This document shows positions 11,476-39,536 of a stretch of 64,000 bases of DNA, piece after piece. This DNA is from Bacillus gaemokensis. Its GTDB lineage: Bacteria > Bacillota > Bacilli > Bacillales > Bacillaceae_G. Within the stretch, counting starts at the first letter, position 1; every line of letters starts with the position of its first letter. Where the stretch lies: positions 641-64,640 of the forward strand of contig NZ_LTAQ01000008.1 in the NCBI RefSeq assembly GCF_001590835.1, given 5' to 3'. The notes under the pieces are model-generated. The model made no database searches and had not been told where the DNA came from. It worked only from the letters and a program-made list of their open reading frames with translations. The position numbers were made by a program, and so were the translations under genes.

Positions 11476-11493
11476 AAAAGGAGGATGAGATGA

Positions 11494-12528: not shown

Positions 12529-12535
12529 ACATTCT

Positions 12536-12572: not shown

Positions 12573-12661
12573 CATACTTATATGAATTTAAAATCCGAAG
12601 GGAGGAAGCTGTAAGAAGAGCGGCCCAGGGTATATACGCTTTTCAGGCAGTGGAACAACAC

Positions 12662-14098
12662 GTGAATATTTTATTTGCAGTATCAGAATGCGTACCGTTT
12701 ATTAAATCCGGTGGCTTAGCAGATGTGGCAGGTGCACTTCCAAAAGAACTCAAAAAATTAGGAGTAAATGTCCGCATTATACTTCCAAACTATAGTCTTA
12801 TTCCTGCGCACTTGCGAAAAGCATGTACGCTTCATAAAGTAATCAATGTTCAGCTCGGTTGGAGAAACCAATATTGCGGAATTTTGAAAGGTGAGCAGGA
12901 TGGGATTACGTATTATCTCATCGACAATGAATATTATTTTAAAAGAGATTCCCTCTATGGTCACTATGATGATGGGGAACGCTTTTCTTTCTTTTCTAAA
13001 GCGGTGTTAGAGTGTATCCCGCATTTAGATTTTGAAGTTGATATTCTTCATAGTCATGATTGGCATACGGCGATGGCAAACTTTTTGCTGCGTGAAAAGT
13101 ATGGAGATAACCCGTTATATCAAGACATTAAAACGGTTTATACCATTCATAATTTACAGTTTCAAGGGGTATTTCCTCGTGAGGTTATGCATGATTTACT
13201 GGAGCTTGGCGATGAATATTACCAGAGCGAACAGCTAGAGTTTTATGGGAACGTTAACTTTATGAAAGGTGGAATTATCGCCTCAGATTGTATTACAGCA
13301 GTTAGTCCAACTTATAAAGAGGAAATTCAATATGAATTTTTTGGAGAGAAACTAGATGGTTTGTTACGAAAGTATAACCATAAGCTTAGTGGCATTGTAA
13401 ATGGAATTGATACGAGTGTATATAATCCGGTAACAGATCCTTATATTACTGCGCAGTATGATGCAGATTCATTAGATGAAAAACAAGAAAATAAACGCGC
13501 ATTACAGCGTTATTTTGGTTTGCCGGAAAAAGAAGATACACCAATTATTTCTATGGTAACGCGGTTAACAAAGCAGAAGGGTCTTGATTTAGTACGTACT
13601 GTCTTTCGGGAAATCATGGAAGAAGATGTGCAATGCATTATTTTAGGATCAGGAGATTCTGAGTATGAGCAATTTTTCGAATGGATGGCATATGAGTATC
13701 CAGAAAAAGTGAAGGTGTACATTGGTTTTAATGAAGAATTGGCGCATCAAGTATATGCAGGTAGCGATTTATTTTTAATGCCATCGTTGTTTGAACCGTG
13801 CGGGCTCGGACAACTTATCGCACTGGCATATGGCGTAATTCCGATTGTGCGAGAAACAGGAGGATTAAACGATACGGTTCAGTCTTATGAAGAGAAGACG
13901 GAAACTGGAAATGGCTTCAGTTTTACCAACTTTAATGCCCATGACATGTTGCATACCGTTCGTCGTGCGCTGCAGTATTATCATAATAAACCAGTATGGA
14001 ATCGGCTTGTAGAGCAGGCAATGACAGAGGATTACAGCTGGAAAAAATCTGCTCTTGCATATAAGAAATTATATAATAATCTGCTGAAACACTCTTAG
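12662..14098 (+). CDS. glgA: glycogen synthase GlgA
   Basis: Transfers glucose from ADP-glucose to the growing alpha-1,4 chain (GT5, GT-B fold). The ADP-glucose motif [16 protein letters not shown] is at residues 15-30, HSHDWHT and TVYTIHN mark the N-terminal domain, and the C-terminal [11 protein letters not shown]-like motif ([17 protein letters not shown]) is intact. I use GTG 12662 (478 residues, [10 protein letters not shown]), the family start; an in-frame GTG at 12650 would add MEQH. The GGGAGG at 12599 is far upstream, so initiation efficiency is uncertain. It ends 12 nt before glgP. Confidence 0.96.
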
Positions 14099-14110
14099 GT
14101 GGTGAAAAAA

Positions 14111-22696: not shown

Positions 22697-24091
22697 GTGA
22701 TTCAGACGAAACAAAAAGATTTACAAGAAATACTTACTGCAGCTATTAAACGTGCGACTGATGAAAAAACATTGGTTAGTTTTGTAAAACAAATAGATTG
22801 GATGGATCCACTTCTTTTTTATGCAGTAGGAAAACGGATTGCATTCGAAAATAGATGTTATTTTGCAGACCCAGCGCAGCATGTAATATTTGCTGGAATT
22901 GGTTCTGTTTTCACTATAGCAAACTCTTCTGATAAACGCTTTCAAACTGCTCGGGAAGAATGGCGTAAGGTGCAGGAAAAGGCGATTGTTCAAAGGGAAA
23001 CATATGAATTTGGAACGGGGCCACTCTTATTTGGGGGCTTTTCATTTGACCCAGAAAAAGAGCAAACGGATCTCTGGAAAGAATTTAAAGATACAACATT
23101 GTCGTTACCAGCGTTTCTGTTAACCGTAAAAGATGAAAAAGCATGGTTAACGATAAATACATTTGTTTCAGCGGAAGATTGTGTAGAGAAGGTGTATGAA
23201 GAGATTGTCTCTTTAGAAGAAAGAATTTTACAAGAGAGTAAATTCTCGCTGGCAGAAGAAAAATTAACGGTTACTTCGAAAGTGGAAGTAGATCCGAAAG
23301 CATGGATGAAGGCAATTGAAAAAGTGCAGGATGAAATGCGAAAAGGAAGCGTTCAGAAAGTTGTATTAGCAAGAGAACTAAAGCTAGTGATGAATCATGA
23401 TGTTGATTCTGTTCGCGTTTTAGAAGCGCTCCGCATGGGACAACCAGATTGTTATGTATTTTCTTTTGATTATAAAGGGGCGTGTTTCTTAGGAGCCACA
23501 CCTGAGAGACTGATTCGAAAAGAAGGCGACAAATTTACATCGATGTGTCTTGCTGGTTCAATTGGTCACGGTGCTTCTATAGAAGAAAGTAAGAAAAATG
23601 GTAATGCACTTCTTCATGATGAAAAGAATTTAGCAGAGCATGGTTATGTAGTGAACATGATACGAGGCGTATTAAATGAGCACTGTGAATCTGTTACTAT
23701 TCCGCAGCATCCAGAGTTATTAACAACAAAAAATTTACTACATTTATTTACACCGGTTGAAGCGAAAGGTGAAGCGTCACTTCTGACAATGGTGGAAGAG
23801 CTGCATCCAACGCCAGCACTTGGCGGAACACCACGCCATGCGGCGATGAAGCTCATTCGTGATGTAGAATTATTAGACAGAGGATTGTACGGAGCACCGA
23901 TCGGCTGGATAGATGACAAAGGAAATGGTGAATTTGCGGTAGCACTGCGTTGTGGATTATTGAATGGTGAGAAGGCATCCTTATTTGCCGGCTGCGGTAT
24001 TGTAATTGATTCAGTACCACAACTTGAATATGAAGAAACAAGTTTGAAGTTTAGACCGATGCTTGGTGCTTTGGAGGAATTAATGAAATGA
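22697..24091 (+). CDS. menF: isochorismate synthase MenF
   Basis: Converts chorismate to isochorismate, the entry step of menaquinone synthesis. The 464 residues have the chorismate-binding domain with KVVLARE (general base Lys), [17 protein letters not shown] (usually AGT.xRG), EHxxVVNMI and [12 protein letters not shown] and the metal-binding Glu residues in YGAPIGWID. It starts at GTG 22697 behind GGGGGGAG and overlaps menD by 4 nt (ATGA). Confidence 0.97.
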
Positions 24092-25842
24092 ACAATCATA
24101 TAGAAGCATTATCATATTATTTAGGCGCGTTTGTGGACGAATTGGCGCGTCTAAATGTATATGATGTTGTCATTAGTCCAGGTTCACGGTCGACGCCGCT
24201 AGCCTTGCTAATGGAGCAGCATGAACAGATACAAACATATTTGCATGTAGATGAACGATCAGCTGCCTTTTTCGCGCTTGGTATCGCGAAAGCAAAGAAG
24301 CGTCCTGTAGCGATTTTATGTACATCAGGAACAGCGGCAGCAAACTATTATCCAGCCGTTTGTGAAGCATTTCATTCACGAGTGCCCCTACTTGTATTAA
24401 CAGCAGATAGACCGCATGAGCTAAGGGATGTAGGAGCACCACAGGCGATGAACCAAATGAATCTATACGGTTCTTTTGTGAAACAGTTTATGGAGATGGC
24501 ACTTCCAGAAGCTAGAGAACCGATGTATCATTATGCTCGTATGACAGCTGGGCGTGCTGTGGCAAGCGCGTGTTTTGCTCCAAAGGGACCTGTTCATATT
24601 AATTTTCCGCTTCGGGAGCCGCTAATTCCTGATTTCTCTTTAGAGTATTTATGGGAAAAGGGCCGCGGAGAATATACTGGGGCGGTTCATCAGGGAAACA
24701 CGACGATGACGAGTGAATATGTAAGTTCTCTTATAGGGCGCCTTTCAAGTATGGAAAAGGGGCTTATTGTTTGTGGAGACGATAGTCATTCGGATTTGCC
24801 AGAAGCTATTATGCAGTTTGCTGAGAAAACTGGTTATCCAGTTTTAGCAGATCCACTTTCAAATCTTCGTGCTGGAAACCATGATAAAGAAATGGTGATA
24901 GACTGCTACGATACATTTTTACGAAATGAATTGCTAAAAGATACATGGAAGCCAGATGTCATTATTCGTTTTGGCGGTATGCCAGTATCAAAAGCATTAA
25001 CACAATTTATAAAAAAACAAAAGACTGCTGTTCATATCGTTGTAGATGAGTCTGGAAAATGGAGAGATCCAGCTCTTATGGTAACCGAAGTAGTATGTGC
25101 AAGTGATATCTCGTTTTGTAAAGAGATTACAGATAAGATGTCAAAGAGAGAAAAGAATGATTGGTTCCAGATGTGGAAACATATAAATGATAAAACGAAG
25201 GAAGAGCTTCGGAAAATCGAAACATATGAAACTGCGTTTGAGGGCAAGGTCATTACGGATATTGTACGTGTATTACCAGAGGAAGCTACGTTATTCGCCA
25301 GTAATAGCATGCCAATTCGTGATACGGATACATTCTTTTTCACGACAGATAAAAACATTCATATCATGGCAAACCGTGGTGTGAATGGCATTGATGGAAT
25401 TATTTCAACAGCATTAGGAGCGAGTACAGTTTGTGAGCCGCTTGTATTAGTAATTGGTGACTTATCATTTTATCATGATCTAAATGGATTATTAGCAGCA
25501 AAATTACATGATTTAAACATAACAATTGTTGTTGTTAATAATGACGGCGGTGGCATTTTCTCATTCTTACCGCAATATGAGTCAAAAGAACATTTTGAAT
25601 CATTGTTTGGCACACCACTTGGACTTGATTATGAACATGTTGTCAAAATGTACGGTGGTTCATTTGCGCGTGTAAATGGCTGGGAAGCATTTCGTGAAGA
25701 AGTACAAAAAGGAACAGCTGAAAACGGCTTACACGTTGTGGAAATTTGTACGAACCGAGAAGAAAACTTACAACTTCACCGGGATTTATGGGCGAATACA
25801 TCGAAGGTGATTACGGAAATTTTGCAAGGTGAATCGAAATGA
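24088..25842 (+). CDS. menD: SEPHCHC synthase MenD
   Basis: Thiamine-diphosphate enzyme that adds the succinic semialdehyde carbanion from 2-oxoglutarate to isochorismate. The 584 residues match family length. [15 protein letters not shown], the TPP-activating Glu region ([12 protein letters not shown]) and the TPP/Mg motif [10 protein letters not shown]...NNDGGGIF are intact. ATGA overlaps couple it to menF upstream and to menH downstream, a standard arrangement in bacilli. Confidence 0.98.
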
Positions 25843-26651
25843 AAGTAACATTGCAAGGTGTAACGTATGAATATGAAGTGGTCGGAAGTGGAGAACCACT
25901 TCTACTTCTTCATGGTTTTACGGGTAGCATGGAAACGTGGCGTCCATTTATTCCTTCATGGAGCAAACAGTTTCAAGTTATCGTAGTGGATCTTGTTGGG
26001 CATGGAAGAACGGAAAGCCCCAAGGAAATTACGCATTATGATATTGAAAATGTAGCTTCGCAAATGAAAGCATTACTTGACCATTTGCATCTCGAAAAAG
26101 CTCATATACTTGGCTATTCGATGGGCGGTAGACTGGCAATTACAATGGCATGTTTGTATCCAAAACGCGTAATTTCTCTGTTATTAGAAAATTGCACGGC
26201 GGGACTTGAGATGGAGGAAGACCGTAAAGAACGCCGCGTGAAAGATGAACAGCTTGCAAATCGAATTGAATCAGAAGGAATAGAAGCTTTCGTGAACGCT
26301 TGGGAAGATATTCCGCTATTTGCAACGCAAAGAAAATTATCACAGGGTGTGCAAGAAGCAGTACGAAAAGAGCGACTTGCCAATAATCCAAGAGGACTTG
26401 CAAATAGTCTCAGGGGCATGGGAACAGGAGCACAGCCTTCATGGTGGAAGCAGCTTGAAGAGCTTAAATTGCCTGTCTTGTTAATGAATGGGGAGAGCGA
26501 TCAAAAGTTCTTTCACATCTTAACAAACATAAAAAAACGCATCCCTCATGCGAAATTTGTCAAAATTGATGGGGCTGGCCATGCAATTCATGTGGAACAA
26601 CCGCAAAAGTTTGATACAATAGTAAAGGGATTTCTTAAAACTATGCAGTGA
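25839..26651 (+). CDS. menH: SHCHC synthase MenH
   Basis: Eliminates pyruvate from SEPHCHC to give 2-succinyl-6-hydroxy-2,4-cyclohexadiene-1-carboxylate. It is an alpha/beta hydrolase of 270 residues with Ser94 in GYSMGG, an acid residue in NGESDQKF and His in [11 protein letters not shown]. It overlaps menD by 4 nt. A 92-nt spacer with a fresh, strong ribosome binding site separates it from menB. Confidence 0.96.
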
Positions 26652-26743
26652 CACTTTTTTCTTTTGAAGAGGGTAGAGCTTATAGATTGGCTAGTGGACA
26701 AGTTAAATTGACTATTAGCAAGATAAAAAAGGAGGTAATAGTA

Positions 26744-27562
26744 ATGGCTATTGAATGGGTAAAAGAAGGAAATTACGAAGATATTATTTATTCCACATAC
26801 AATGGTATCGCAAAGATTTCGATTAACCGTCCTGAAGTACATAATGCATTCCGTCCGAAGACGGTAATGGAGTTAATCAATGCTTTTGCACACGCACGTG
26901 ATGATGCAAATGTTGGCGTTATCATTTTAACGGGTGAAGGTGGACGTGCATTCTGTTCTGGTGGCGACCAAAAGGTTCGCGGTCATGGCGGATATGTAGG
27001 TGAGGACCAAATCCCACGCTTAAACGTATTAGACTTACAACGTTTAATTCGCGCAATCCCTAAACCAGTTATTGCAATGGTAGCAGGTTATGCAATTGGC
27101 GGTGGACACGTACTTCATATCGTATGTGACTTAACAATCGCAGCAGACAACGCTGTATTCGGACAAACTGGTCCTAAAGTAGGTAGCTTTGATGGCGGAT
27201 ACGGAGCTGGTTATTTAGCTCGTATGGTAGGTCATAAGAAAGCTCGTGAAATTTGGTACCTATGTCGTCAATACAGTGCACAAGAAGCACTTGATATGGG
27301 CTTAGTAAACACAGTTGTACCATTAGATCAATTAGAAGCAGAAACAGTACAGTGGGCAGAAGAAATCTTAGGAAACAGCCCAATGGCACTTCGTTTCTTA
27401 AAAGCTGCGTTTAACGCAGATACAGATGGTTTAGCTGGTATCCAGCAACTAGCGGGAGACGCAACGTTATTGTACTACACAACTGACGAAGCAAAAGAAG
27501 GCCGCGACGCGTTCAAAGAAAAACGCAGCCCGGACTTTGGACAATTCCCTCGTTTTCCGTGA
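26744..27562 (+). CDS. menB: 1,4-dihydroxy-2-naphthoyl-CoA synthase MenB
   Basis: Closes the naphthoquinone ring from O-succinylbenzoyl-CoA. Crotonase fold, 272 residues. The oxyanion loop [20 protein letters not shown] and the signature [13 protein letters not shown] are present. ATG 26744 lies behind AAAAAAGGAGG; an open frame reaching back to 26648 is only the region between genes. Codon use is more optimal than in its neighbours. It is followed by a structured intergenic element and a terminator-like hairpin before menE. Confidence 0.98.
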
Positions 27563-27565
27563 TTA

Positions 27566-27692
27566 AAAGCGGAGCCGACTGTTTAGACCTGTTGGCTAAG
27601 GTTCTTTCGTACAGAAAGTGATTTTTACTTTCTTGTGCGGAAGGTTCTTAGACGCAAGGGTCGAGGAGGCGTAGCTGGATGGGATTAAAGCG
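27566..27692 (+). repeat. structured intergenic element between menB and menE
   Basis: About 125 nt with nested complementarity: GAAAGTGATTTTTACTTTC forms one hairpin, enclosed by AAGGTTCTTTCGTAC with GTGCGGAAGGTTCTTA, and both ends carry TTAAAGCGGAAGC-like or TTAAAAGCGGAGCC motifs as direct repeats. It resembles GC-richer bcr-type intergenic repeats of bacilli. Only one copy is in this window, so repeat status is inferred. Confidence 0.5.
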
Positions 27693-27698
27693 GAAGCA

Positions 27699-27735
27699 AA
27701 AAAGAGACTTGATTGTACATCAAGTCTCTTTCTTT
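27699..27735 (+). terminator. terminator-like hairpin before menE
   Basis: AAGAGACTTGATG pairs with CATCAAGTCTCTT around a two-base centre, followed by TCTTT. It lies 20 nt before the menE start. Since menE has no obvious promoter, it probably reduces rather than stops transcription. Confidence 0.8.
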
Positions 27736-27754
27736 AATGAAAGGAGAATGTGTA

Positions 27755-29200
27755 ATGGAGACGATGCCCAATTGGTTAATGCAACGTGCATTTCTAACAC
27801 CAGAGCGCACTGCGATTGAAACGAAAGAGGAGAAGATTACCTTTTTAGAACTGCATGAAAAAGTATTATCTGTTTGTGAACACCTTTCTTACTTACAGAT
27901 AGAAAAAGGTCAAAAAGTGGCTGTTCTGATGAAAAATGGTACGGAGATGATTACAGTCATTCACGCTTTATCATATATAGGGGCAGTGGCTGTACTTCTC
28001 AATACACGTCTTTCAAGAGAAGAGCTACTTTGGCAAATGGAAGATGCTGAAGTTGTTTGCTTAATAACGGACCAAGAATTTGAAACCGAGCAGGTACCAG
28101 TGCATGCATTTGCAGAAGTAGTGGAAGGACAGAAGAAAACTGCAGTCGTTCAAGAGGAATTCTCCTTAGAAGAGGCAATGACGATTATTTATACATCAGG
28201 GACAACTGGTAAACCGAAAGGCGTTATTTTAACGTATGGCAATCATTGGGCGAGTGCTGTTGGATCATCACTTAATTTAGGGCTTCGTGATGATGATTGT
28301 TGGCTAGCGTGTATGCCGATGTTTCATGTAGGTGGTTTATCTCTTTTAATGAAAAATATTATGTACGGTATGAGGATTTTACTTGTTCCGAAATATGATC
28401 CAGATTTCATTCATGAGGCACTAGAAACAAGAGGAGTTACAATCATATCAGTCGTTTCTAAAATGCTGACAGACCTATTAGATCGACTTGGAGAAGGTAC
28501 CTATCCTAAATCCTTACGATGTGTGTTATTAGGCGGAGGACCAGCACCGAAGCCGTTATTAGAAACATGTGTGGCAAAAGGAATTCCTGTATATCAAACG
28601 TATGGTATGACAGAAACTTCTTCTCAAATCTGTACGCTTTCAGCGGATTACATGTTAACGAAAATTGGATCAGCTGGAAAACCTCTTTTTTCATGTCAGC
28701 TTCGGATTGAGAATGATGGCGAAGTAGTACTGCCGAATGTTGAAGGAGAGATTGTTGTAAAAGGACCGAATGTAACGCGTGGTTATTTTAAACGGGAAGA
28801 TGCGACGCGTGAAACAATAATAAATGGTTGGTTGCATACAGGAGATCTTGGGTATTTGGATGAAGAAGGGTTCCTATATGTATTAGATCGCCGCAGTGAT
28901 TTAATTATTTCAGGCGGAGAAAATATTTATCCAGCGCAAATTGAGGAAGTACTACTTGCTCATGCGGCAGTCGCAGAGGCTGGTGTTGTTGGAAAAGTAG
29001 ATGAAAAGTGGGGACAAGTACCAGCTGCATTTATTGTGAAAGCTGACGATATAACAGAAGAAGAGCTTATTCGTTTTTGTGAAGAAAGGTTAGCGCGATA
29101 TAAAGTACCGAAAGAAGTACATTTCTTATCTGAGTTACCACGTAATGCTTCAAAAAAATTGTTAAGACGTGAATTAAGGCAGCTACTGGAGGAAATGTAG
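27755..29200 (+). CDS. menE: o-succinylbenzoate--CoA ligase MenE
   Basis: Activates o-succinylbenzoate with ATP and CoA. AMP-forming acyl-CoA synthetase of 481 residues with P-loop-like motif [21 protein letters not shown], the hinge motif [15 protein letters not shown] and the catalytic Lys in [11 protein letters not shown] start at ATG 27755 (METMPNWL) behind AAAGGAGA; an upstream ATG at 27738 overlaps that site. Its stop codon abuts menC directly. Confidence 0.97.
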
Positions 29201-30307
29201 ATGAGAATCAAAAAGGCGACGCTTTATATAACAGAAATGCCTCTCGTTATCCCTTTTGCAGCAAGTTACGGAACGTATAAAACACGTGAGAGTATCGTCA
29301 TTGAACTAGAGGATACGGACGGATATATCGGTTTTGGGGAAGTCGTTGCTTTTTCAGAGCCGTGGTATACAGAAGAAACAGTAACAACAGCGCTACATAT
29401 GCTGAAGGACTTTTTATTACCAGATTTATTGAAAGTTGAAATTACGCATCCAAATGAGATTCCGAATCTCTTTCAACATATAAAGCGTAATCGTATGGCG
29501 AAAGCAGGGATAGAAGGTGCAGTATGGGATTTGTATGCGAAACGCCAAAATCAATCACTAGCGACTTTACTTGGCGGAACACAGCTAGAAATTGAAGTCG
29601 GTGTTGTGATTGGATTAGATACGATTCCGAATATGTTAAAGCGAATTGAAAAGTATGCAGAAGAAGGATACCAGCGATTTAAAGTGAAAATAAAGCCGGA
29701 ACTTGATTATGAGTTACTAAAGGAAATACGAAAGGTCTTTTCAAAAATTCCATTAATGGTCGATGCGAATTCAGCATATACGTTAGCGGATACGGAGCAA
29801 TTAAAGAGGTTAGATGAATTTCAGTTAATGATGATTGAGCAGCCTTTAGCAGATAACGATTTTCTGGATCATGCTGAGCTGCAAAAGAGAATAGAAACAC
29901 CGATTTGTTTAGATGAAAGTATTCATTGTTTAGAAGACGCGAGAGTAGCCATTACACTTGGAAGCTGCCGTATTGTTAATATTAAACCAGGACGTGTTGG
30001 CGGATTAACCGAATCGATTCAAATTCATGATTATTGTCAGCGGCACGATATTCCTGTTTGGTGCGGTGGTATGGTTGAAATGGGGATTTCGCGCGCACAA
30101 AATATTGCGTTAGCATCACTTCCAAACTTTACGATTCCAGGAGATATTTCAGCTTCAAGTAGACATTGGGAGCGAGATATTATTTCACCAGAAGTCATGC
30201 TACAAGGCGGGAAAGTAATTGTTCCGAAAGAAGCTGGATTTGGATATAACGTAAACCGAAACAGGTTAGAAGCGATAACGAAGCAGCGGATTATATGTGA
30301 AAGCTGA
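29201..30307 (+). CDS. menC: o-succinylbenzoate synthase MenC
   Basis: Dehydrates SHCHC to o-succinylbenzoate. Enolase superfamily, 368 residues, of the MenC/N-acylamino acid racemase branch. The catalytic Lys pair is in FKVKIKP, metal ligands are in VDANSAY, IEQPL and CLDESI, and the second Lys in NIKPGRVGG. It begins at the base after the menE stop (TAGATG), so translation is coupled. In this order menE works after menC in the pathway. Confidence 0.96.
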   Translation: MRIKKATLYITEMPLVIPFAASYGTYKTRESIVIELEDTDGYIGFGEVVAFSEPWYTEETVTTALHMLKDFLLPDLLKVEITHPNEIPNLFQHIKRNRMAKAGIEGAVWDLYAKRQNQSLATLLGGTQLEIEVGVVIGLDTIPNMLKRIEKYAEEGYQRFKVKIKPELDYELLKEIRKVFSKIPLMVDANSAYTLADTEQLKRLDEFQLMMIEQPLADNDFLDHAELQKRIETPICLDESIHCLEDARVAITLGSCRIVNIKPGRVGGLTESIQIHDYCQRHDIPVWCGGMVEMGISRAQNIALASLPNFTIPGDISASSRHWERDIISPEVMLQGGKVIVPKEAGFGYNVNRNRLEAITKQRIICES

Positions 30308-30450: not shown

Positions 30451-30619
30451 ATTGTACAAACGGAATAGACTGGTTTAAAATCAAGCATGTTAAAATATAT
30501 ATCCAAAAAAACAGTTGGATGTTTTGAAAGTGTATAACTCCGCAAGGCTGGAGCGATAGAATAGAAACGAAATAGATATGAAATATTGAATGCTAACTTT
30601 ATACGGGGGGGGGAATAAA

Positions 30620-31315
30620 ATGAAACGTATTTCGATTTTGATAGCTGATGATGAGATGGAAATTGCAGATTTAATTGCTATCCATTTAGAAAAAGAAGGC
30701 TACCGTGTAGTCAAAGCATCTAATGGGAAAGAAGCTATTCAAGTTATTCAATCGCAAGTAATTGATTTGGTAATTTTAGATATTATGATGCCTGAAATGG
30801 ATGGTTATGAAGTAACGCGTCAAATTCGAGGACAATACCATATGCCTATCATTTTCTTAAGTGCAAAAACATCTGACTTTGATAAAGTAACAGGACTGGT
30901 AATTGGGGCAGATGATTACATGACGAAACCTTTCACTCCTATTGAACTAGTTGCTCGTGTAAATGCTCAGTTACGGAGATTTTTGAAGTTGAATCAACCT
31001 AAACCAGATAATAAATTCGTTTTGGAAGTTGGTGGATTAGTTATTTATCCTGATCAACGGACAGTTAGTCTCTATGGTGAACATATTGAGCTAACGCCAA
31101 AAGAGTTTGATATTTTATATTTACTAGCGAGTCATCCAAAGAAAGTTTATAATGTGGAAAATATTTTTCAACAAGTGTGGGCAGAGGACTACTATGAAGG
31201 TGGGAATACAGTTATGGTACATATTCGTACCTTACGAAAAAAACTTGGAGAGGATAAAAGGAAAAACAAATTGATAAAAACGGTTTGGGGGGTTGGGTAT
31301 ACATTCAATGGCTAA
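30620..31315 (+). CDS. OmpR/VanR-type response regulator (kinase partner truncated)
   Basis: A DNA-binding response regulator of 231 residues. The receiver has acidic pocket DDE near residue 10, phospho-acceptor Asp54 (VILDIMMPEMDGYE) and Lys in TKPF. The C-terminal winged helix (about 130-231) ends TVWGVGYTFNG. It resembles VanR-like regulators of bacilli. ATG 30620 follows a run of G. The kinase gene that overlaps its stop is reduced to 40 codons, so this regulator is either orphaned or phosphorylated by another kinase. Confidence 0.93.
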   Translation: MKRISILIADDEMEIADLIAIHLEKEGYRVVKASNGKEAIQVIQSQVIDLVILDIMMPEMDGYEVTRQIRGQYHMPIIFLSAKTSDFDKVTGLVIGADDYMTKPFTPIELVARVNAQLRRFLKLNQPKPDNKFVLEVGGLVIYPDQRTVSLYGEHIELTPKEFDILYLLASHPKKVYNVENIFQQVWAEDYYEGGNTVMVHIRTLRKKLGEDKRKNKLIKTVWGVGYTFNG

Positions 31316-31904: not shown

Positions 31905-33281
31905 ATGATACATATCGATAGAGAAAGATGGGGTAGGATTCAGAGTATATTTATATATAGTCTACTACTAAGTACAATCTTTACACCAATGCTTTTTTAC
32001 GTTGTGTATGGACTACAATTAGCCAACGGATTTGAAGGATATTGGCCATCTATCTTGTTTTATACTACCTATATGACTGGGGTGTTCATTTGGATACCTA
32101 TAGTTAGTAAGATTGGTATTCATCGATCTTTATACTGGTCTGTGTTCATTACGATAGTATCTATCATTAGTGTTGCCTTTTTTAAAGATTCTTCCCTATG
32201 GCTTGAAGGAAGTGCATTAGTTTCTGGTTTTTCAGTTAGTACTATTTCTTCAATGACAAGCACTTTATTATTTCGTCACGTAGAAAGAGGGGGGAAAGTT
32301 TTTAACGAAAATCAACAAGCAATGATTATTTTTATCGTTTTCTTCTTGTTAATTGTAATACTTTTGGCCATTAGCTTAGTAAACCTGCCACTAGTAACCT
32401 TAGTGTATGGAAGTTGCTTAATTAGCATACTTTTGGCCATAAGAAAAATGCCAACAATTGAAAAAGTCAAAGAAATGCCCTCTTTTTCAATTATAGGGGC
32501 AGTCGTAAGGTTTCTGTTGTTTTCTCTACTCGTTATTCTGTTACGTGCGAGTCGTAGTATAGACAATGAACAAATCATACTCTTTTTCCTTATTGTGACT
32601 ATACTGCTTGTTGGTTTCATGCTTTTTAAATTATTAAGAGGTCAATTTTTTCATAAACTTTCTTCATCATTACCAGCTAAATTAAAGGCCCAATCATTTT
32701 TGCTTGGATTTGGAAATGGTTATTTATTTTTGATAGGGATATTTTATAGTTTTGCATTTTATAATATTTTAACTAGTATTTTTATTGTAATCGGTCCGTA
32801 TTTATTAGGGATGTTAATGTCTACACTGTTAAACAATAAAACGGTTAAGAAAATGAATCCAGTATATATTTTTCTATTGAGTACATTTTTAATGTTATTC
32901 GGATTTTATTCACCGATATTTATTATCCTTAGTGTAACAATTGGGAGCTATACATTTAACATGATTTCTTCTAAAAATAATATGAATGTATATACCCATA
33001 ATCCTTCACACAGAGAGCTTTCATTACTCATTCACACAACTTGGAGATCGATTGGAAATATGTGTTTACAATTCTTTGTATTTGTTGTGATTGTGACGGT
33101 TGGGATTTACTACGATACCCAGTGGTCGCAACTTTTTCAAACAATTGTTGGAAGGAATAAGTTGGAGATTCCGGGGTTACCAGTACCGCTATTAATGTTT
33201 ATTTTAGCATTCTGTTGTTGGCTTGGAATGGTAGGTTTAGGTGTTTGGATCAGTAAAAGATCTACTCCAAAAGAAGCTTAG
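31905..33281 (+). CDS. MFS-like multi-pass membrane transporter
   Basis: A 458-residue integral membrane protein with about 12 to 14 hydrophobic segments and basic loops. Overall layout (two halves separated by a charged loop near residues 185-200, basic loops such as RKMPTIEKVK) suggests the major facilitator superfamily, but I see no clean MFS motif A and no recognisable substrate family. TGGAGG precedes the ATG. It is a single gene with its own terminator. An export role is possible, given the neighbouring regulator, but this is a guess. Confidence 0.7.
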   Translation: MIHIDRERWGRIQSIFIYSLLLSTIFTPMLFYVVYGLQLANGFEGYWPSILFYTTYMTGVFIWIPIVSKIGIHRSLYWSVFITIVSIISVAFFKDSSLWLEGSALVSGFSVSTISSMTSTLLFRHVERGGKVFNENQQAMIIFIVFFLLIVILLAISLVNLPLVTLVYGSCLISILLAIRKMPTIEKVKEMPSFSIIGAVVRFLLFSLLVILLRASRSIDNEQIILFFLIVTILLVGFMLFKLLRGQFFHKLSSSLPAKLKAQSFLLGFGNGYLFLIGIFYSFAFYNILTSIFIVIGPYLLGMLMSTLLNNKTVKKMNPVYIFLLSTFLMLFGFYSPIFIILSVTIGSYTFNMISSKNNMNVYTHNPSHRELSLLIHTTWRSIGNMCLQFFVFVVIVTVGIYYDTQWSQLFQTIVGRNKLEIPGLPVPLLMFILAFCCWLGMVGLGVWISKRSTPKEA

Positions 33282-33347: not shown

Positions 33348-33359
33348 TATAACGTTATA
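33348..33359. promoter_or_regulatory. candidate operator palindrome upstream of the catabolic operon
   Basis: TATAACGTTATA is a perfect 12-bp palindrome 109 bp before the first gene of the 33.4-39.5 kb operon. It could bind the operon's own GntR/UTRA regulator. Only the palindrome is seen; the role is inferred. Confidence 0.4.
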
Positions 33360-33420: not shown

Positions 33421-33434
33421 TGTAAGCGTATTCT
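33421..33434 (+). promoter_or_regulatory. candidate cre (CcpA) site of the catabolic operon
   Basis: TGTAAGCGTATTCT matches 12 of 14 positions of TGWAANCGNTNWCA and lies 34 bp before the first start codon, a usual place for a roadblock or promoter cre site in a carbohydrate operon. Confidence 0.55.
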
Positions 33435-33467
33435 TTAGGGCTTTTTATAGAAAAGGGTGGAAGTACA

Positions 33468-34568
33468 ATGACAGAACGATTCGTACTACGTAATGTAAAA
33501 CGTGTGAACGGGGAAGAAATTGACATTGTAATTGAAAATAATAAAATCGCTGAGATAACAAAGGCTGGTGCTGGAGAAGGTGGAAAGATTTTCGATTACT
33601 CAGATGTGTATGTATCGAGTGGTTGGATTGATTTACATGTTCATGCCTTTCCAGAATTTGATCCATATGGAGATGAAGTAGATGAAATTGGCGTTAAACA
33701 AGGGGTAATAACAATTGTTGATGCGGGGAGCTGTGGTGCAGATCGTATTGCAGATTTAGTTGCAAGTAGAGAGCAGGCGAAAACAAACTTATTTGCCTTT
33801 TTGAACATTTCACGCATTGGATTAAAACGAATTAACGAATTATCCAATATGGAATGGATAGATAGAGAGAAAGTCGTGCAAGCAGTTGATCAATATAAAG
33901 ACATAATTGTTGGTTTAAAGGCACGAATTAGTAAAAGCGTCGTTTGTGGTAGTGGGATTGAACCATTACATGTAGCACGGTCATTATCTCGTGAAACATT
34001 GTTACCGCTTATGGTACACATCGGTTCAGCACCTCCTCGTATTGAAGAGGTAGTACCGCTTTTAGAAAAAGGTGATGTCATTACGCATTACTTAAACGGA
34101 AAAGAAAATAACCTTTTTGATAAGGAAGGAAAGCCGCTTAAGGTGTTACTTGATGCGATTGAACGTGGTATCCATTTAGATGTTGGGCATGGTAATGCTA
34201 GTTTTTCATTTAAAGTGGCTGAAGCAGCGAAGCACCATGGTATCGGACTTCATACAATTAGTACAGATATATATCGTAAAAATCGTGTACATGGTCCGGT
34301 TTATAGTATGGCAAATGTTCTTTCTAAATTCCTTCATTTAGGTTATGCCTTAGAGGAAGTTATTGCAGCTGTTACGACGAATGCAGCAAATTGGCTTAAG
34401 AAACCAGAACTTGGCCGAATTCAGGCTGGAGATATTGCGAATTTAACCTTATTTACGGTTAAAAATGAACCAATTACGTTAATTGATTCAGAAGGGGATC
34501 AGCGCATAGCTGAAAGAAGAATTGATACAAAAGGGGTTGTAATAAATGGGTCATTCATTGAATGCTAA
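33468..34568 (+). CDS. amidohydrolase/deacetylase family metallohydrolase (EF_0837 type)
   Basis: A 366-residue amidohydrolase-superfamily enzyme. The metal site is seen as HVH (DLHVHAFPEFD, about residue 57), a probably carboxylated Lys in GLKARISKS, His in MVHIGSAP and DVGHGNAS and the catalytic Asp in HTISTDIYRKN. It belongs to the family named for Enterococcus EF_0837, close to dihydroorotases and N-acetylglucosamine-6-phosphate deacetylases, and always found beside the next two genes. I infer that it removes an acyl group from an amino-sugar acid. It starts the operon behind AAGGGTGG and overlaps the next gene by 23 nt. Confidence 0.88.
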   Translation: MTERFVLRNVKRVNGEEIDIVIENNKIAEITKAGAGEGGKIFDYSDVYVSSGWIDLHVHAFPEFDPYGDEVDEIGVKQGVITIVDAGSCGADRIADLVASREQAKTNLFAFLNISRIGLKRINELSNMEWIDREKVVQAVDQYKDIIVGLKARISKSVVCGSGIEPLHVARSLSRETLLPLMVHIGSAPPRIEEVVPLLEKGDVITHYLNGKENNLFDKEGKPLKVLLDAIERGIHLDVGHGNASFSFKVAEAAKHHGIGLHTISTDIYRKNRVHGPVYSMANVLSKFLHLGYALEEVIAAVTTNAANWLKKPELGRIQAGDIANLTLFTVKNEPITLIDSEGDQRIAERRIDTKGVVINGSFIEC

Positions 34569-35655
34569 ATACGGATTGAAACGTGTAATTAATGCGAGCG
34601 GGAGAATGAGTATTTTAGGCGTATCTGCTCCAACTAATACAGTAATGGATGCGATGAAACATGGTGGACAAAATTATGTGGAAATTGCAGATTTAGTAGA
34701 TAAAGCAGGCGATTATATTGCGAGTATCTTAGATTCAGAGGCAGCTGTTGTTGTCAATTCAGCTTCAAGCGGCATTGCACTTTCTGTCGCCGCACTTGTT
34801 ACAGAAGGCAATCGTCGTAAGAGTGAAAGACTTCATCAAGAAGTAATTGCAAAAAATGAAGTCATTATGCTGAAAGGGCACAACGTTCAGTATGGTGCAC
34901 CTGTTGAAACGATGATTTACTTAGGTGGCGGTAAGCTTGTGGAAGTAGGTTATGCGAACGAAGGGAAAGCTGAACATATTGAAGATGCAATTGGTGAAAA
35001 TACAGCCGCTATTCTGTATGTGAAATCACACCATGCAGTTCAAAAAAATATGATTTCTGTTGAAGAAGCATGGGAAGTCGCTAAGAGAAATGGTGTACCG
35101 CTTATTGTAGATGCAGCTGCAGAAGAAGATCTTCAAAAATATGTGAAGTATTCTGATCTAGCAATCTATAGTGGTTCTAAAGCAATTGAAGGGCCGACTT
35201 CAGGAATTGTCGGTGGTAAGAGGAAGTATATTGAATGGATTAAAGTACAGCTGCATTGCAGTGGAAGAAGCATGAAAGTTGGGAAAGAAACAACATTTGG
35301 CTTACTGCAAGCACTTGATGAGTATGGCGTTAAAGAAGATAAGAGTGAACAAGAAAAAGAAATGTTACAAGCACTGATGCCGCTGAAAGAATTAGCAGGC
35401 GTGAATGTAACACTTGTGCAGGATGAAGCAGGACGAGCAATATTCCGTGCACGTATTCATATTGACGAAGCAAAAATAAATAAAACAGCAAAAGATATTG
35501 TAACAGGCTTACGTGAAGGGGAAATCGCGATTTATACACGTGATTATGGTGTGAGACAAGGACATTTTGATATTGATCCACGTCCACTTCAAGGTGATGA
35601 TATACACGTGATTGAATCAAAATTAAGAGAACTAGTGGGGGGGAAAATAAGATGA
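34546..35655 (+). CDS. DgaE-like PLP-dependent ammonia lyase
   Basis: A 369-residue fold-type I PLP enzyme of the SelA-related family that includes DgaE, the D-glucosaminate-6-phosphate ammonia lyase of Salmonella. The PLP lysine is Lys212 in YSGSKAIEGPTSG, and Asp189 in IVDAAAEED should hold the pyridine nitrogen. It would convert a 2-amino-2-deoxy aldonate to the 2-keto-3-deoxy acid with release of ammonia. It overlaps the deacetylase by 23 nt (AGGGG before the ATG) and the aldolase by 4 nt (ATGA), which indicates tight translational coupling. Confidence 0.88.
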   Translation: MGHSLNAKYGLKRVINASGRMSILGVSAPTNTVMDAMKHGGQNYVEIADLVDKAGDYIASILDSEAAVVVNSASSGIALSVAALVTEGNRRKSERLHQEVIAKNEVIMLKGHNVQYGAPVETMIYLGGGKLVEVGYANEGKAEHIEDAIGENTAAILYVKSHHAVQKNMISVEEAWEVAKRNGVPLIVDAAAEEDLQKYVKYSDLAIYSGSKAIEGPTSGIVGGKRKYIEWIKVQLHCSGRSMKVGKETTFGLLQALDEYGVKEDKSEQEKEMLQALMPLKELAGVNVTLVQDEAGRAIFRARIHIDEAKINKTAKDIVTGLREGEIAIYTRDYGVRQGHFDIDPRPLQGDDIHVIESKLRELVGGKIR

Positions 35656-36407
35656 CAAACATTCAAAAACGTTTTTATAAAGGCCGCGTGGCATTAAATG
35701 TATTAGCAAGTAGTATTGAAAATGCGAAAGAATTATTTGACGCAGCGGAAGGTTATGTATTGGTAGGTGTTTTATCAAAAGATTACCCAACAGTAAAAGA
35801 AGCAGTAGTTGCAATGAGAGAATACGGAAAAGAAATTGACGAAGCTGTATCTATTGGACTTGGTGCAGGAGATAATCGCCAAGCGGCAGTAGTGGCAGAG
35901 ATTGTAAAACAGTATCCTGGTAGTCATATTAACCAAGTGTTTCCTGCTGTTGGAGCTACACGTGCAAATCTTGGGGAAAAGGATAGCTGGATTAATAGTT
36001 TAGTATCGCCTACAGGAAGAGTAGGGTATGTAAATATTTCAACAGGACCAATCAGTGCAGCACAAGATGAGCATGCGATTGTACCTATTAAAACGGCAAT
36101 CGCACTTATACGTGATATGGGTGGAAACGCAATTAAGTACTTCCCGATGAAAGGATTAGCTCATGAAGAAGAGTTCCATGCAGTTGCGACAGCATGTGCT
36201 GAAGAAGGATTTGCATTAGAACCAACAGGCGGAATTGATAAAGAAAACTTTGAAACGATTTTACGCATTGCGTTAGAGGCAAATGTGCAACAAGTGATTC
36301 CACATGTGTATTCATCTATTATTGATAAAGAAACAGGGAAAACGAATGTGGAAGATGTTCGAGAACTATTAGCAACAGTAAAGAAATTAGTTAATCAACA
36401 TGCCTAA
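35652..36407 (+). CDS. DgaF-like 2-keto-3-deoxy-6-phosphogluconate aldolase (EF_0839 type)
   Basis: A 251-residue TIM-barrel aldolase of the EF_0839/DgaF family. The Schiff-base lysine is likely Lys162 in GGNAIKYFPMKG, and EPTGGID binds phosphate. It would cleave KDPG to pyruvate and glyceraldehyde 3-phosphate. ATGA overlap with the lyase gene and 8-nt overlap with the kinase gene show a single translational unit. Assignment is from family knowledge and gene context. Confidence 0.88.
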   Translation: MTNIQKRFYKGRVALNVLASSIENAKELFDAAEGYVLVGVLSKDYPTVKEAVVAMREYGKEIDEAVSIGLGAGDNRQAAVVAEIVKQYPGSHINQVFPAVGATRANLGEKDSWINSLVSPTGRVGYVNISTGPISAAQDEHAIVPIKTAIALIRDMGGNAIKYFPMKGLAHEEEFHAVATACAEEGFALEPTGGIDKENFETILRIALEANVQQVIPHVYSSIIDKETGKTNVEDVRELLATVKKLVNQHA

Positions 36408-37416
36408 GAATATTGCAGTATTTGGAGAAGTGATGATGCGCCTTCAGGTACCTGGTTATGAATATTTATCGCAAGCAAATACACTGAATTATTCATTTTC
36501 CGGTACAGGCGTAAATGTCGCATCCGCACTTGCTCGTTTAGGACATGGCGGTTCACTTGTATCCACATTGCCAGATAATGCAGTAGGAGATGCAGCGATA
36601 TCATATGTTCAAAAATTAGGCATTCATCACTCGTTTATTAAGCGGGGCGGAAAATATGTTGGTATGTACTTTTTAGAGAATGGATTTGGAGCGCGGCCAA
36701 GCCGCGTTACCTATTCCAATCGATTAGAGAGCAGTTTTAATACAGCGCCTGAAGGAACGTACCATTTTGAAGAAATTGCGAAAAAAATCGATGTCGTTCA
36801 TTTTTGCGGTATTACACTTGCGATGAATGATTCTGTTCGTCAGCATATGCAATCTTTTGCCAAAGCTGTGAAAGAGAACGGTGGTACAGTTGTTTTTGAT
36901 TGTAATTATCGGCCATCTCTTTGGGGAGAAGGTGGATATGAACAGGCAAAACCACATTATGAAGAAATGCTATATCTAGCTGATATTGTGATGATGAACG
37001 AAAAAGATGCGATGTTCATTCTTGGGATGAAAACAGACGAGATAGAGCGTAAAGAGCAATTAACTGATTTAATCCCTAAGGTTGCAAAGCGGTACCATAT
37101 TTCTACAATTGCAGGGACACATCGAGCGATAAATAGTGATAATACGCATTCACTTTGTGGGTATATGTTTAAAAATCAAAGATTCACATTTTCAAAAACA
37201 CTCACGTTTTCTGTATATGATAGAATAGGTGCTGGAGATGCTTATACGAGCGGAATTATCCATGGCGAGGTAGAAGGATTTGCATCAGAGAAAACAGTAG
37301 CATTTGCTGCGGTAGCGGGAATGCTTGCACATACAATCGTCGGTGATACGCCGATGTCATCGGAGAAAGATATATTCAGAGCGATGACGGAATCAGTAGG
37401 TGATGTAGAAAGGTAG
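36400..37416 (+). CDS. PfkB-family sugar kinase, probable 2-keto-3-deoxygluconate kinase
   Basis: A 338-residue ribokinase-family kinase. GEVMMRLQVPG at the N-terminus, the sugar-binding FSGTGVNVASALARLG and the anion-hole motif DRIGAGDAYTSG near residue 285 are present. With an aldolase acting on a 6-phosphate and a GntP-type permease that imports unphosphorylated acid, its best role is to phosphorylate the 2-keto-3-deoxy acid or the hexonate before it. It starts within the aldolase gene without a clear ribosome binding site, so it depends on coupling. Confidence 0.88.
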   Translation: MPKNIAVFGEVMMRLQVPGYEYLSQANTLNYSFSGTGVNVASALARLGHGGSLVSTLPDNAVGDAAISYVQKLGIHHSFIKRGGKYVGMYFLENGFGARPSRVTYSNRLESSFNTAPEGTYHFEEIAKKIDVVHFCGITLAMNDSVRQHMQSFAKAVKENGGTVVFDCNYRPSLWGEGGYEQAKPHYEEMLYLADIVMMNEKDAMFILGMKTDEIERKEQLTDLIPKVAKRYHISTIAGTHRAINSDNTHSLCGYMFKNQRFTFSKTLTFSVYDRIGAGDAYTSGIIHGEVEGFASEKTVAFAAVAGMLAHTIVGDTPMSSEKDIFRAMTESVGDVER

Positions 37417-38141
37417 TGAGTGTAGCGGTGAACGTAACTCGAAAAAAAGGACCATTATATTTACAAATTAAGAATATACTTCGGGATCGGATATTACATG
37501 GTGTATATGCGATTCATACAAATATCCCTTCAGAACCACAGTTAGAAGAAGAGTTTAAAGTAAGTAAAATCACAGTGCGAAATGCGATTAAAGAACTTGT
37601 TCAAGAAGGGTATTTGGAAAAGAAGAGTGGAAAAGGAACAAAAGTCATTCGAAATACTTCGACTGCAAAACTTTCTAAAGGAAAGCGATTTACAGAAGTT
37701 TTAGTGGAAGAAGGGCATAAAGTTCAGAAGAAATTGCTGCAAGCAGGAGTTGTAGATAATGAGGAAGGAACAGTACCTTTTCGATTATTTGGAAAGCAGT
37801 GTTTCCGTATCGAGCGCTTGTATGTTTTGAATGATGCACCATATATTCATTATACGCACTATTTGCCGGTGCAAATGGAGGTAGCGGAACTATCGGATTT
37901 AACGTTCCAATCACTTTATGGCTTAGTCGAAGAACAAGGCGTACACTTAGAAAACTTTCGAGATGAGTTTGCTGTTGCTACTCCGCCAGCTCATATTGGG
38001 ACGATATTAGGGGAAAAGGAAAATACATCATTATTAAAGCGGATGCGTTATTCATATGATGAAATCGGAACAGTAATTGAATATAGTGAAGGATATTATA
38101 ATACTGAAATGCAACATTATGTTGTGAATTATGATGTATAA
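37416..38141 (+). CDS. GntR/HutC-family transcriptional regulator with UTRA domain
   Basis: A 241-residue regulator. Residues 10-75 form the GntR winged helix (PLYLQIKNILRDRI to SEPQLEEEFKVSKITVRNAI), and 95-235 the UTRA ligand-binding domain typical of sugar-responsive repressors. It begins at GTG 37416, overlapping the last base of the kinase stop. Being inside the operon, it is probably an autoregulated repressor relieved by a pathway intermediate. A terminator follows, yet the permease gene comes next on the same strand. Confidence 0.92.
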   Translation: MSVAVNVTRKKGPLYLQIKNILRDRILHGVYAIHTNIPSEPQLEEEFKVSKITVRNAIKELVQEGYLEKKSGKGTKVIRNTSTAKLSKGKRFTEVLVEEGHKVQKKLLQAGVVDNEEGTVPFRLFGKQCFRIERLYVLNDAPYIHYTHYLPVQMEVAELSDLTFQSLYGLVEEQGVHLENFRDEFAVATPPAHIGTILGEKENTSLLKRMRYSYDEIGTVIEYSEGYYNTEMQHYVVNYDV

Positions 38142-38175
38142 AACCTGAAGAGGAATGAATTCCTCTTGGGTTTTA
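38140..38175 (+). terminator. internal terminator between regulator and permease
   Basis: AAGAGGAA pairs with TTCCTCTT, extended by AAAACC with GGGTTTT, at the GntR stop codon. It would lower permease expression relative to the enzymes unless read through. Confidence 0.85.
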
Positions 38176-38176
38176 A

Positions 38177-38190
38177 TGGGAACGTTTTCA
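38177..38190 (+). promoter_or_regulatory. second candidate cre-like site
   Basis: TGGGAACGTTTTCA matches 12 of 14 positions of the cre consensus and lies 20 bp before the permease start. It would suit separate catabolite control of uptake. Evidence is motif only. Confidence 0.4.
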
Positions 38191-38210
38191 TATCGAAGGG
38201 GGAAGTGGAT

Positions 38211-39536
38211 ATGGATATATACTTATTAATCATTACTTTGCTTGCAATCGTCATTGTAATAGTAGGAGTATCATGGTGGAAATGGCATGCGTTCATTAGT
38301 TTAACAGTTGCTTGTATTTTTTTGGCAATTATGTCCGGGGTATCTTTAACTAAAATTGTTACTGCCTATGAAATTGGTGTTGGAAGTGTACTAGGGCATT
38401 TAGTTGGTATTTTAGCGCTCGGTACAATTCTAGGGAAAATGATGTCAGATTCAGGTGCTGGTATGCAAGTGGCAGATTCCTTTATTCGATTCTTTGGTGT
38501 GAAGAAATTGCCTTGGGCAATGCTCTTTGCCGGTTTTATAATCGGGATTCCAGTATTTTTTGAAGTTGGGATTGTTATCTTATTACCACTTGTTATTTCA
38601 ATTCGGAAAACAACGAAACAAAACATATTATTAATTGCTTTACCTGTAATTGCAGGTTTATCTATCGTACATGGGCTTGTGCCACCGCACCCAGGTGCAA
38701 TGACAGCAATTGGCATTTATAATGCGAATTTAGGAAAAGTGCTCCTTTATTCATTAATCATTGCTTTACCAACAGCGATTATCGCTGGACCACTGTTTGC
38801 AAAGTGGGTGCATAAACGAGTGATTCCGGAAGGGGAACCTGAATTGATTCGTGTGACAACAGCATCTACAGATTTACCAAGTCGTAAAGTTTCATGCTTT
38901 ATTATCTTATTACCTGTATTACTAATGGTTTTATCAGTTATTGCACCGTATACTTCATTACCAAATATAATGTCTGAATTTTTAGTTTTTGTAGGAAGTC
39001 CAGTTATTGCTTTACTTATTTCTTGCTTTGCGGCATTTTATTTACTAAGTATGCGCCAAGGAATCGATAAAAAGATGATTAAAAAATTAACCGATGAAAG
39101 CTTGTTACCTGTTGGCTCCATTATTTTAATTATTGGTGCAGGCGGAGGGTTTAAACAAATTTTAATTGAGAGTGGTGTAGGAACTTCCATTGCTCAAATG
39201 TCAGAGCACTTATCGTTATCACCAATCGTGTTAGCCTTTATGGTTGCAGGCTTAATTCGAATTGCTACAGGTTCAGCTACAGTCGCATTGACAACGGCAG
39301 CTAGTATTGTTTCACCAGTAATTGAACATATGTCAGGTGTGAATTTAGAATTGCTCGTCATTGCGACAGGGGCAGGGTCATTAATGTTTTCACACGTCAA
39401 TGATGCTGGGTTCTGGCTTGTAAAAGAGTATTTGGGGTTAACAGTCAAAGAGACGTTTAAAACGTGGACGGTACTTGAGACATTATTGTCATTTATCGCA
39501 TTTGGATTTGCACTATTGCTTAATATGTTCATATAA
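38211..39536 (+). CDS. GntP-family gluconate:H+ symporter
   Basis: A 441-residue permease with about 12 to 14 membrane segments of the GntP family, which carry gluconate and related sugar acids with protons. VHGLVPPHPGAMTA, the characteristic GntP motif, and IRIATGSATVALTTAA and HVNDAGFWL near the C-terminus are all present. ATG 38211 follows GAAGGGGGAAG; an upstream extension has no ribosome binding site. It supplies the substrate of the preceding enzymes as the free acid, unlike the PTS used in Salmonella dga. Confidence 0.94.
   Translation: MDIYLLIITLLAIVIVIVGVSWWKWHAFISLTVACIFLAIMSGVSLTKIVTAYEIGVGSVLGHLVGILALGTILGKMMSDSGAGMQVADSFIRFFGVKKLPWAMLFAGFIIGIPVFFEVGIVILLPLVISIRKTTKQNILLIALPVIAGLSIVHGLVPPHPGAMTAIGIYNANLGKVLLYSLIIALPTAIIAGPLFAKWVHKRVIPEGEPELIRVTTASTDLPSRKVSCFIILLPVLLMVLSVIAPYTSLPNIMSEFLVFVGSPVIALLISCFAAFYLLSMRQGIDKKMIKKLTDESLLPVGSIILIIGAGGGFKQILIESGVGTSIAQMSEHLSLSPIVLAFMVAGLIRIATGSATVALTTAASIVSPVIEHMSGVNLELLVIATGAGSLMFSHVNDAGFWLVKEYLGLTVKETFKTWTVLETLLSFIAFGFALLLNMFI

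Follow-up and report, generated by a model that had tools for sequence, protein, structure and literature searches.

The stretch analysed here (the window) is 64 kb of a Bacillus gaemokensis contig (NZ_LTAQ01000008.1, positions 641 to 64,640), in which six genes lie in a single direction at 33468-39536. We read them, with about an even chance of being right, as an operon with all it needs to catabolise a free N-acetylated hexosaminate, of which N-acetyl-D-glucosaminate (GlcNAc1A) is the likeliest, and in which a sugar kinase acts before an ammonia-lyase. The operon is real, conserved and previously described, and it is a variant of known hexosaminate pathways. New here are a palindrome upstream of it, a rule that ties the presence of the kinase to the type of transport, a distinct kinase clade and a suggestive link to lytic polysaccharide monooxygenases (LPMOs). 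The genes encode a predicted deacetylase, a lyase that uses pyridoxal 5'-phosphate (PLP), an aldolase for 2-keto-3-deoxy-6-phosphogluconate (KDPG), a kinase, a regulator and a permease:

33468..34568, + strand: EF_0837-family amidohydrolase/deacetylase, predicted N-acetyl-hexosaminate deacetylase (TIGR03583, 555 bits, cut-off 432)
34546..35655, + strand: DgaE-family PLP ammonia-lyase (TIGR01437, 549 bits, cut-off 385)
35652..36407, + strand: DgaF KDPG aldolase, with Lys162 (NF047796, 385.5 bits, cut-off 300)
36400..37416, + strand: PfkB-family sugar(-acid) kinase of a dga-specific clade, with the motif IGAGDAY
37416..38141, + strand: GntR/UTRA transcriptional regulator (Pfam GntR and UTRA)
38211..39536, + strand: GntP-family permease (TIGR00791, 447 bits, cut-off 293), in a frame open from TTG 38166

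A preliminary description of this DNA, made from the letters alone, had named the same six families in the same order, and the profile scores for the deacetylase, DgaE, DgaF and GntP and the Pfam domains of the regulator bear it out. Its picture of six tightly overlapping genes holds for the first five, which overlap or abut by 23, 4, 8 and 1 nucleotides (nt). The likely start of GntP is ATG 38211 behind GGGGGA, which leaves a gap of 69 nt after gntR; TTG 38166 is merely the first start codon of the frame. Solved relatives of the amidohydrolase are 8wzy, 2ics, 2ogj and 8je0, and a literature search gave no paper on deacetylase activity of EF_0837 (TIGR03583) on an N-acetyl sugar acid. The aldolase is 87% identical to the solved 3m6y, which we take to be from B. 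cereus, and alignment puts its Lys162 at the place predicted. The same is true of Lys212 of the lyase, which aligns with the PLP-binding lysine of the Salmonella enzyme. This protein scores 299 bits against the solved 7lc0/7lce and has equivalents of Lys213, His162 and His163 in the count of the 7lc0 chain, and it stays under the cut-off of the D-glucosaminate-6-phosphate lyase model NF047797 (397 bits against 600). The catalytic lysine of Salmonella DgaE is numbered Lys-217 in the relevant text of PMC9529869 but counts as 213 in that chain. For the GntR regulator every NCBIfam model remained under its cut-off. Neither a mannose-family phosphotransferase system (Man-PTS) nor a RidA gene is among the six genes, and the locus is typed as GntP.

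A pattern of gene content came from comparing 119 stretches: the window, 80 genome-contig loci (the best 80 of 194 confirmed), six annotated plasmid-collection loci and 32 stretches of Bacillota genomes. A DgaE relative is present in 117 of them; the other two (L168 and L169) were excluded. Transport was typed within 8 kb, with priority in the order GntP, lactose-family PTS plus MupG (Lac-PTS+MupG), SFCGS, Man-PTS and ABC where several were present, and the typing count excludes loci L087-L147 and L180 onwards. The kinase accompanies 40 of 41 GntP loci, 21 of 23 ABC loci and 21 of 26 loci in which no transporter was recognised. It is also found in all eight Lac-PTS+MupG loci, of which two carry an SFCGS set as well and seven are distinct, L042 and L171 being the same locus. 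It is absent from all 17 loci with the SFCGS/DUF4310-4312 set without MupG and from both Man-PTS loci. One genome carries two cassettes, one with Lac-PTS, MupG and kinase (L171) and one with the SFCGS set and no kinase (L172). The SFCGS set is probably a PTS, because of its PRD/BglG-like partners and a ptsP gene in the same gene run in Bartonella.

Outside the SFCGS and Man-PTS types the kinase is missing from eight loci. One is a GntP-type locus of an uncultured isolate (L014) that lacks both the kinase and the end of dgaF. Six others, two of ABC type (L156, L158) together with L086, L155, L157 and L159, hold a distant DgaE-like protein, and each lacks the deacetylase, DgaF or both. The last (L023) has neither kinase nor known transporter and lies amid sulfatase genes. 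As for the two Man-PTS loci, L083 has DgaF and no deacetylase, and L152 has neither. The simplest reading of these counts is that the kinase is needed where the acid enters the cell without a phosphate, whether by itself or as the half set free from a phosphorylated disaccharide; SFCGS-only and Man-PTS loci would do without it because there the PTS is expected to phosphorylate the sugar. In the DgaE tree, loci with the kinase (L082, L084, L148, L170) and loci without it (L081, L083, L085) fall together in one clade of seven with strong support (100/99), and kinase presence changes three times among the 40 rows of the tree.

The kinase itself departs from the enzymes it most resembles. The GAGD motif reported earlier is there, reading IGAGDAY, and the nearest solved structure is 3ktn (224 bits), followed by 2afb, a kinase for 2-keto-3-deoxygluconate (KDG; 179 bits). 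Against the KDG-kinase models NF052444, NF040938 and NF041332 it reaches 77, 93 and 150 bits, where the cut-offs are 400, 400 and 440. The kinases sampled from dga loci group in a single clade (19 rows, support 100/99). Where KDG kinases have their loops, the window kinase has SGTGVN, YSNR and CGI, so that the Tyr-x-Arg substrate motif of KDG kinases is not found in it; YSNR has one residue inserted. All 20 sampled dga-type kinases (the 19 plus L201, 67% identical) fill the column of this insertion, which is empty in all 28 of the other PfkB proteins from the same order and in the solved KDG kinases 2afb and 1v19. The comparison set was drawn from 30 loci, less the dga-type L201 and one without a usable open reading frame (ORF). 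The pattern is steady across the 90 kinases of typed loci: TYxNR occurs in 87, with TNSSR (L006, L012) and TYTDR (L066) of the same length in the others, G[ST]GxN in 89 (L032 starts late) and H[FIVL]CGI in 86. In the KDG kinase of S. solfataricus, the pertinent passage of PMC5334617 names Tyr106 and Arg108 as KDG-recognition residues, and the aligned YxR motif probably corresponds to this pair. The altered motif thus speaks, with moderate weight, against KDG as the substrate of the dga-type kinase. In Priestia abyssalis (G001) a KDG-kinase-like gene lies about 3 kb from UxaC and is another candidate kinase for KDG there.

The upstream region and the gap before gntP hold four features that may control the operon, the first of which was absent from the preliminary description:

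33348..33359, no strand: perfect 12-base palindrome TATAACGTTATA, conserved upstream of relatives and the likely operator for the GntR/UTRA regulator of the operon
33421..33434, + strand: site TGTAAGCGTATTCT upstream of the operon, like a catabolite-responsive element (cre), two mismatches to the consensus TGWNANCGNTNWCA
38139..38175, + strand: hairpin, possible terminator or attenuator, spanning the end of gntR and the gap before gntP
38177..38190, no strand: cre-like site TGGGAACGTTTTCA before gntP, one mismatch to the consensus TGWNANCGNTNWCA

No other place in the window matches TATAACGTTATA with fewer than two mismatches. In the 300 nt before the deacetylase gene, with loci grouped by transport type, it is exact in 36 of 41 GntP loci and has one mismatch in the other five. 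Exact copies stand in 17 of 22 ABC loci, with four more at one mismatch, and in 12 of the 22 loci for which no transporter was recognised, with five more at one mismatch; three of six Lac-PTS+MupG loci have a one-mismatch copy. None was found within two mismatches in the 17 SFCGS-type loci or the two loci of Lac-PTS+MupG with SFCGS. Letter shuffles of the same upstream stretches gave an exact copy in 0% and one mismatch in 0.3%. This conservation marks out TATAACGTTATA as the likely operator at which the operon's own GntR protein acts.

A wider probe covered 14 whole genomes that have the aldolase gene, 13 of which also have LPMO_10. Exact copies occur in nine of the 14, against four of 14 for the reversed pattern used as a control. 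In five (G001, G759, G549, G571, G706) the copy lies about 2.3 kb before dgaF, at the deacetylase start, and in four (G656, G617, G599, G528) it lies elsewhere in the genome. Among the matches listed for the other nine genomes, one-mismatch copies stand at the deacetylase start in G506 and G617 and none stands there in G656 and G718, so the operator is placed at the operon in at least seven of the 14 genomes, fewer than among nearer relatives. One-mismatch copies were on the whole no commoner than those of the backward control among the matches listed (13-25 against 15-55 per genome).

The consensus TGWNANCGNTNWCA was used to score cre-like sites. Both sites named in the preliminary description were found, and their position in relatives supports them, although the upstream one is the poorer match in the window. 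Upstream cre-like sites occur in many relatives about 37-63 nt ahead of the start codon, and 21 of 39 GntP-type loci, the window not being one of them, have such a site within one mismatch (shuffles 1.8%). Cre-like letters are also present in the gntR-gntP gap of seven of eight relatives inspected (L001, L002, L003, L005, L006, L012 and L037; not L057). In this gap the hairpin comes first, at -17.7 kcal/mol (z -4.23, with none of 200 shuffles equally stable), and the cre-like site follows; inverted repeats can be read in the same gap of L001-L003.

Parts of this system have been described elsewhere. PMC4896439 (PLoS One 2016) reports in its relevant section a cassette in all the B. cereus group genomes it considered, so the operon is a known one and the newness implied by the preliminary description does not stand. 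Its 'gluconate system III' has, as here, a GntP, a GntR-family regulator, a KDG-kinase-like protein, an amidohydrolase, an aldolase and a PLP enzyme, and a gluconate derivative, for example D-glucosaminate, is the substrate that its authors suggest; the passages on that system propose neither reaction steps nor an operator, a place for the kinase or a substrate with an acetyl group. The Salmonella dgaABCD-dgaE-dgaF genes (Phillips et al. 2022, PMC9529869) share the DgaE lyase and DgaF aldolase. There the PTS delivers the 6-phosphate and the pathway, as outlined in the sections bearing on it, runs without deacetylase or kinase, unlike the window operon. The ong pathway of Pseudoalteromonas prydzensis (Jiang et al. 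2022, PMC9537276) shares free uptake, deacetylation, loss of ammonia, a sugar kinase and KDPG. Its text as far as it concerns us describes OngB as a D-aminoacylase-like amidohydrolase and OngC as a fold-type III PLP enzyme (PMC9537276, PMC12017989), with an SSS transporter, a MurR/RpiR regulator and a required RidA protein (PMC9537276); in the window the amidohydrolase and the SelA-like PLP enzyme belong to other families and the transporter is GntP. Two clusters from plasmids, one of C. difficile (L082) and one in a plasmid record of Enterococcus faecalis (L084), combine an EF_0837-family deacetylase, DgaE and DgaF with a kinase that falls in the same clade; where the window has GntP, they have PTS genes and a MupG-family 6-phospho-glycosidase. 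Finally, for the haloarchaeon Natrarchaeobius, the part of PMC12343721 on its GlcNAc route predicts that an unknown kinase supplies glucosaminate 6-phosphate, on which a DgaE homologue then acts. That route differs in that a glucose dehydrogenase makes the acid from glucosamine, and the passages on it name no EF_0837 deacetylase or DgaF.

In the pathway that we infer, GntP would import free GlcNAc1A and the EF_0837-family enzyme would remove the acetate. The PfkB kinase would then phosphorylate O6 before the lyase step, replacing the PTS of Salmonella and, presumably, of Klebsiella and others. DgaE would eliminate ammonia to give KDPG, and DgaF would split this into pyruvate and glyceraldehyde 3-phosphate. 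GntR would act as repressor at TATAACGTTATA, probably with CcpA exerting catabolite control through the two cre-like sites. Uptake of a free N-acyl-hexosaminate by GntP and a pathway ending in KDPG cleavage had been proposed in the preliminary description, and both fit the family assignments and the gene-content rule. What differs is the place of the kinase: the transport rule, together with a kinase clade that departs from KDG kinases at the substrate motif, makes us lean towards phosphorylation before the lyase.

The preliminary description placed the kinase after the lyase, with free GlcNAc1A deacetylated, deaminated to KDG, phosphorylated to KDPG and cleaved. We consider this order a serious possibility, although somewhat short of an even chance. 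It is not new, since the material on the pathway in PMC9537276 shows deacetylase, deaminase and KDG kinase in that order for GlcNAc1A, with other enzymes, in Pseudoalteromonas prydzensis. Several observations weigh against our own ordering of the steps. In this shown route the kinase comes last, and its KdgK hardly phosphorylates GlcNAc1A, according to the same material. The curated models closest to the window kinase are a KDPG-aldolase/kinase fusion and KDG kinases, and 2afb is its best-matching specifically named enzyme. For the link between kinase presence and transport type the DgaE tree offers only three independent pairs, all as expected, so the test cannot reach significance (p 0.25 at best). 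Arg301, Arg332 and Arg346, which manual docking put at the 6-phosphate in Salmonella DgaE in the account of that model in PMC9529869, have equivalents in the window lyase, which is a point for phosphorylation first; but distant relatives of DgaE whose loci lack kinase or deacetylase retain them too, so that they may serve another role. Across the 117 relatives, distant ones included, Arg301 and Arg332 occur in all, Arg346 in 115 and His162 in 116. For this reason the lyase residues were dropped as an arbiter of the order. Deacetylase position 64, near the HxH motif, splits kinase-type from SFCGS-type loci completely, which hints that the free acid is the one deacetylated.

Against a kinase that acts last stand its scores far under three KDG-kinase models and its deviation at the YxR motif. 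DgaE columns that separate kinase-type from PTS-type loci number three, no more than the 0-4 of relabelled controls, as would be expected if the lyase met the same 6-phosphate everywhere, and the deacetylase has one such column against 0-1 in controls. With Man-PTS and Salmonella rows added, one separating DgaE column (41) is left. A set of 89 deacetylase columns within one clade was set aside as mere divergence. Separating columns do not prove the order of steps, and the residue comparisons, taken from alignments, leave the order of kinase and lyase undecided. The order bears on whether the kinase deserves the name KDG kinase.

The substrate could also be a different N-acyl D-amino-acid-like sugar acid, such as N-acetyl-galactosaminate, another epimer or an acid with another acyl group, which we judge unlikely. 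The low score of the lyase against the D-glucosaminate-6-phosphate lyase model would suit this, as would the surroundings of some relatives. In L023 (5032-15324) the kinase-less cassette lies between sulfatase, oligogalacturonate-lyase-like, dehydrogenase, sulfatase-modifying-factor-like and ROK proteins, and its substrate is perhaps a sulfated amino-sugar acid. In L073 (7200-16674) the neighbours of the cassette encode DUF4127, GH130 phosphorylase and ABC sugar-binding proteins, and similar clusters occur in several Paenibacillus. These two loci suggest other substrate sources in some species. On the other side, DgaF reaches its equivalog cut-off, and the Lac-PTS+MupG loci seem equipped for a disaccharide that yields, once split, a unit requiring the kinase; chitobionate would suit this. 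SmCHB is a hexosaminidase. In one assay GlcNAc-GlcNAc1A was the dimer remaining after SmCHB treatment, as given in the assay text of PMC13325158, and GlcNAc1A is the C1-oxidised end unit of LPMO products in the corresponding statement of PMC9537276.

Whether the cassette is tied to LPMOs was approached in 398 Bacilli genomes, using the aldolase model TIGR03581, LPMO_10 and UxaC as a control gene, with kinship uncontrolled. TIGR03581 is found in 63 genomes, LPMO_10 in 47 and both in 30 (odds ratio 17, p 4e-16, a value that ignores kinship); LPMO_10 is thus present in 30 of 63 DgaF-positive and 17 of 335 DgaF-negative genomes. The odds ratio of UxaC with LPMO_10 is 2.4. In a split of the aldolase genomes that was drawn after the list was seen, LPMO_10 occurs in 15 of 33 higher-scoring and 15 of 30 lower-scoring genomes; both groups show the association. 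Seven of the 63 fall under the curated cut-off, and in two of these (the source genomes of L168 and L169) the aldolase has no neighbouring DgaE; eleven lower-scoring genomes were inspected, nine of them SFCGS type and two without DgaE. Among UxaC-positive genomes the higher-scoring group has an LPMO odds ratio of 8.3 (13/29 against 6/67). By size, LPMO_10 is present in 10/22 against 2/18 at 5 Mb or more (p 0.035), 2/2 against 4/23 at 3.5-5 Mb (p 0.05) and 1/5 against 0/26 below 3.5 Mb (p 0.16). Several LPMO-positive genomes are alike in size and LPMO length and look closely related, so they are not independent; because many positives look related and kinship is uncontrolled, the association is suggestive only.

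The chances seem evenly balanced that the chitin link is a by-product of kinship and genome size and that the operon uses glucosaminates from any source. LPMO_10 is lacking in 18 of the 33 genomes with a higher-scoring DgaF, and the apparent close kinship of several positives points the same way. Near the LPMO genes of the probed genomes there is no exact TATAACGTTATA, and the closest one-mismatch copy among the matches listed is more than 4 kb off (G506). Direct control of LPMO genes by GntR at this operator is unsupported, since TATAACGTTATA is not seen at them. The contrast between odds ratios of 17 for DgaF and 2.4 for UxaC, and the excess in the largest UxaC-positive genomes, argue the other way. 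We suggest, tentatively and with clearly less confidence than the pathway itself, that Bacillota have their own route for the oxidised chitin end unit made by LPMOs, with enzymes unrelated to the ong deacetylase and lyase. Delivery would be interchangeable (GntP, ABC, a disaccharide PTS with MupG, or a monosaccharide PTS), and a new kinase subfamily would phosphorylate glucosaminate or N-acetylglucosaminate whenever a PTS does not. A literature search to which most subscription papers were out of reach found no paper tying the Bacillota cassette to oxidised chitin. If the link is true, Bacillota would make dedicated use of an oxidised sugar left by LPMOs, and several families about which little is known (the EF_0837 deacetylase, the kinase clade, SFCGS/DUF4310-4312 transport and the MupG proteins seen here) would have a substrate in common.

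The operon adjoins a 458-aa ORF upstream (31905-33281) that looks by eye like a membrane protein and has no Pfam or NCBIfam match at E up to 0.001. Before it lies a response regulator (30590-31315) that scores 458 bits to the VanR-F/M model, just under the cut-off of 460. Further upstream is a menaquinone operon at 22697-30307 (isochorismate synthase, menD, menH, menB, menE, menC), and at 8451-16519 lie glycogen genes, represented by glgB (8451) and an alpha-glucan phosphorylase (14099).

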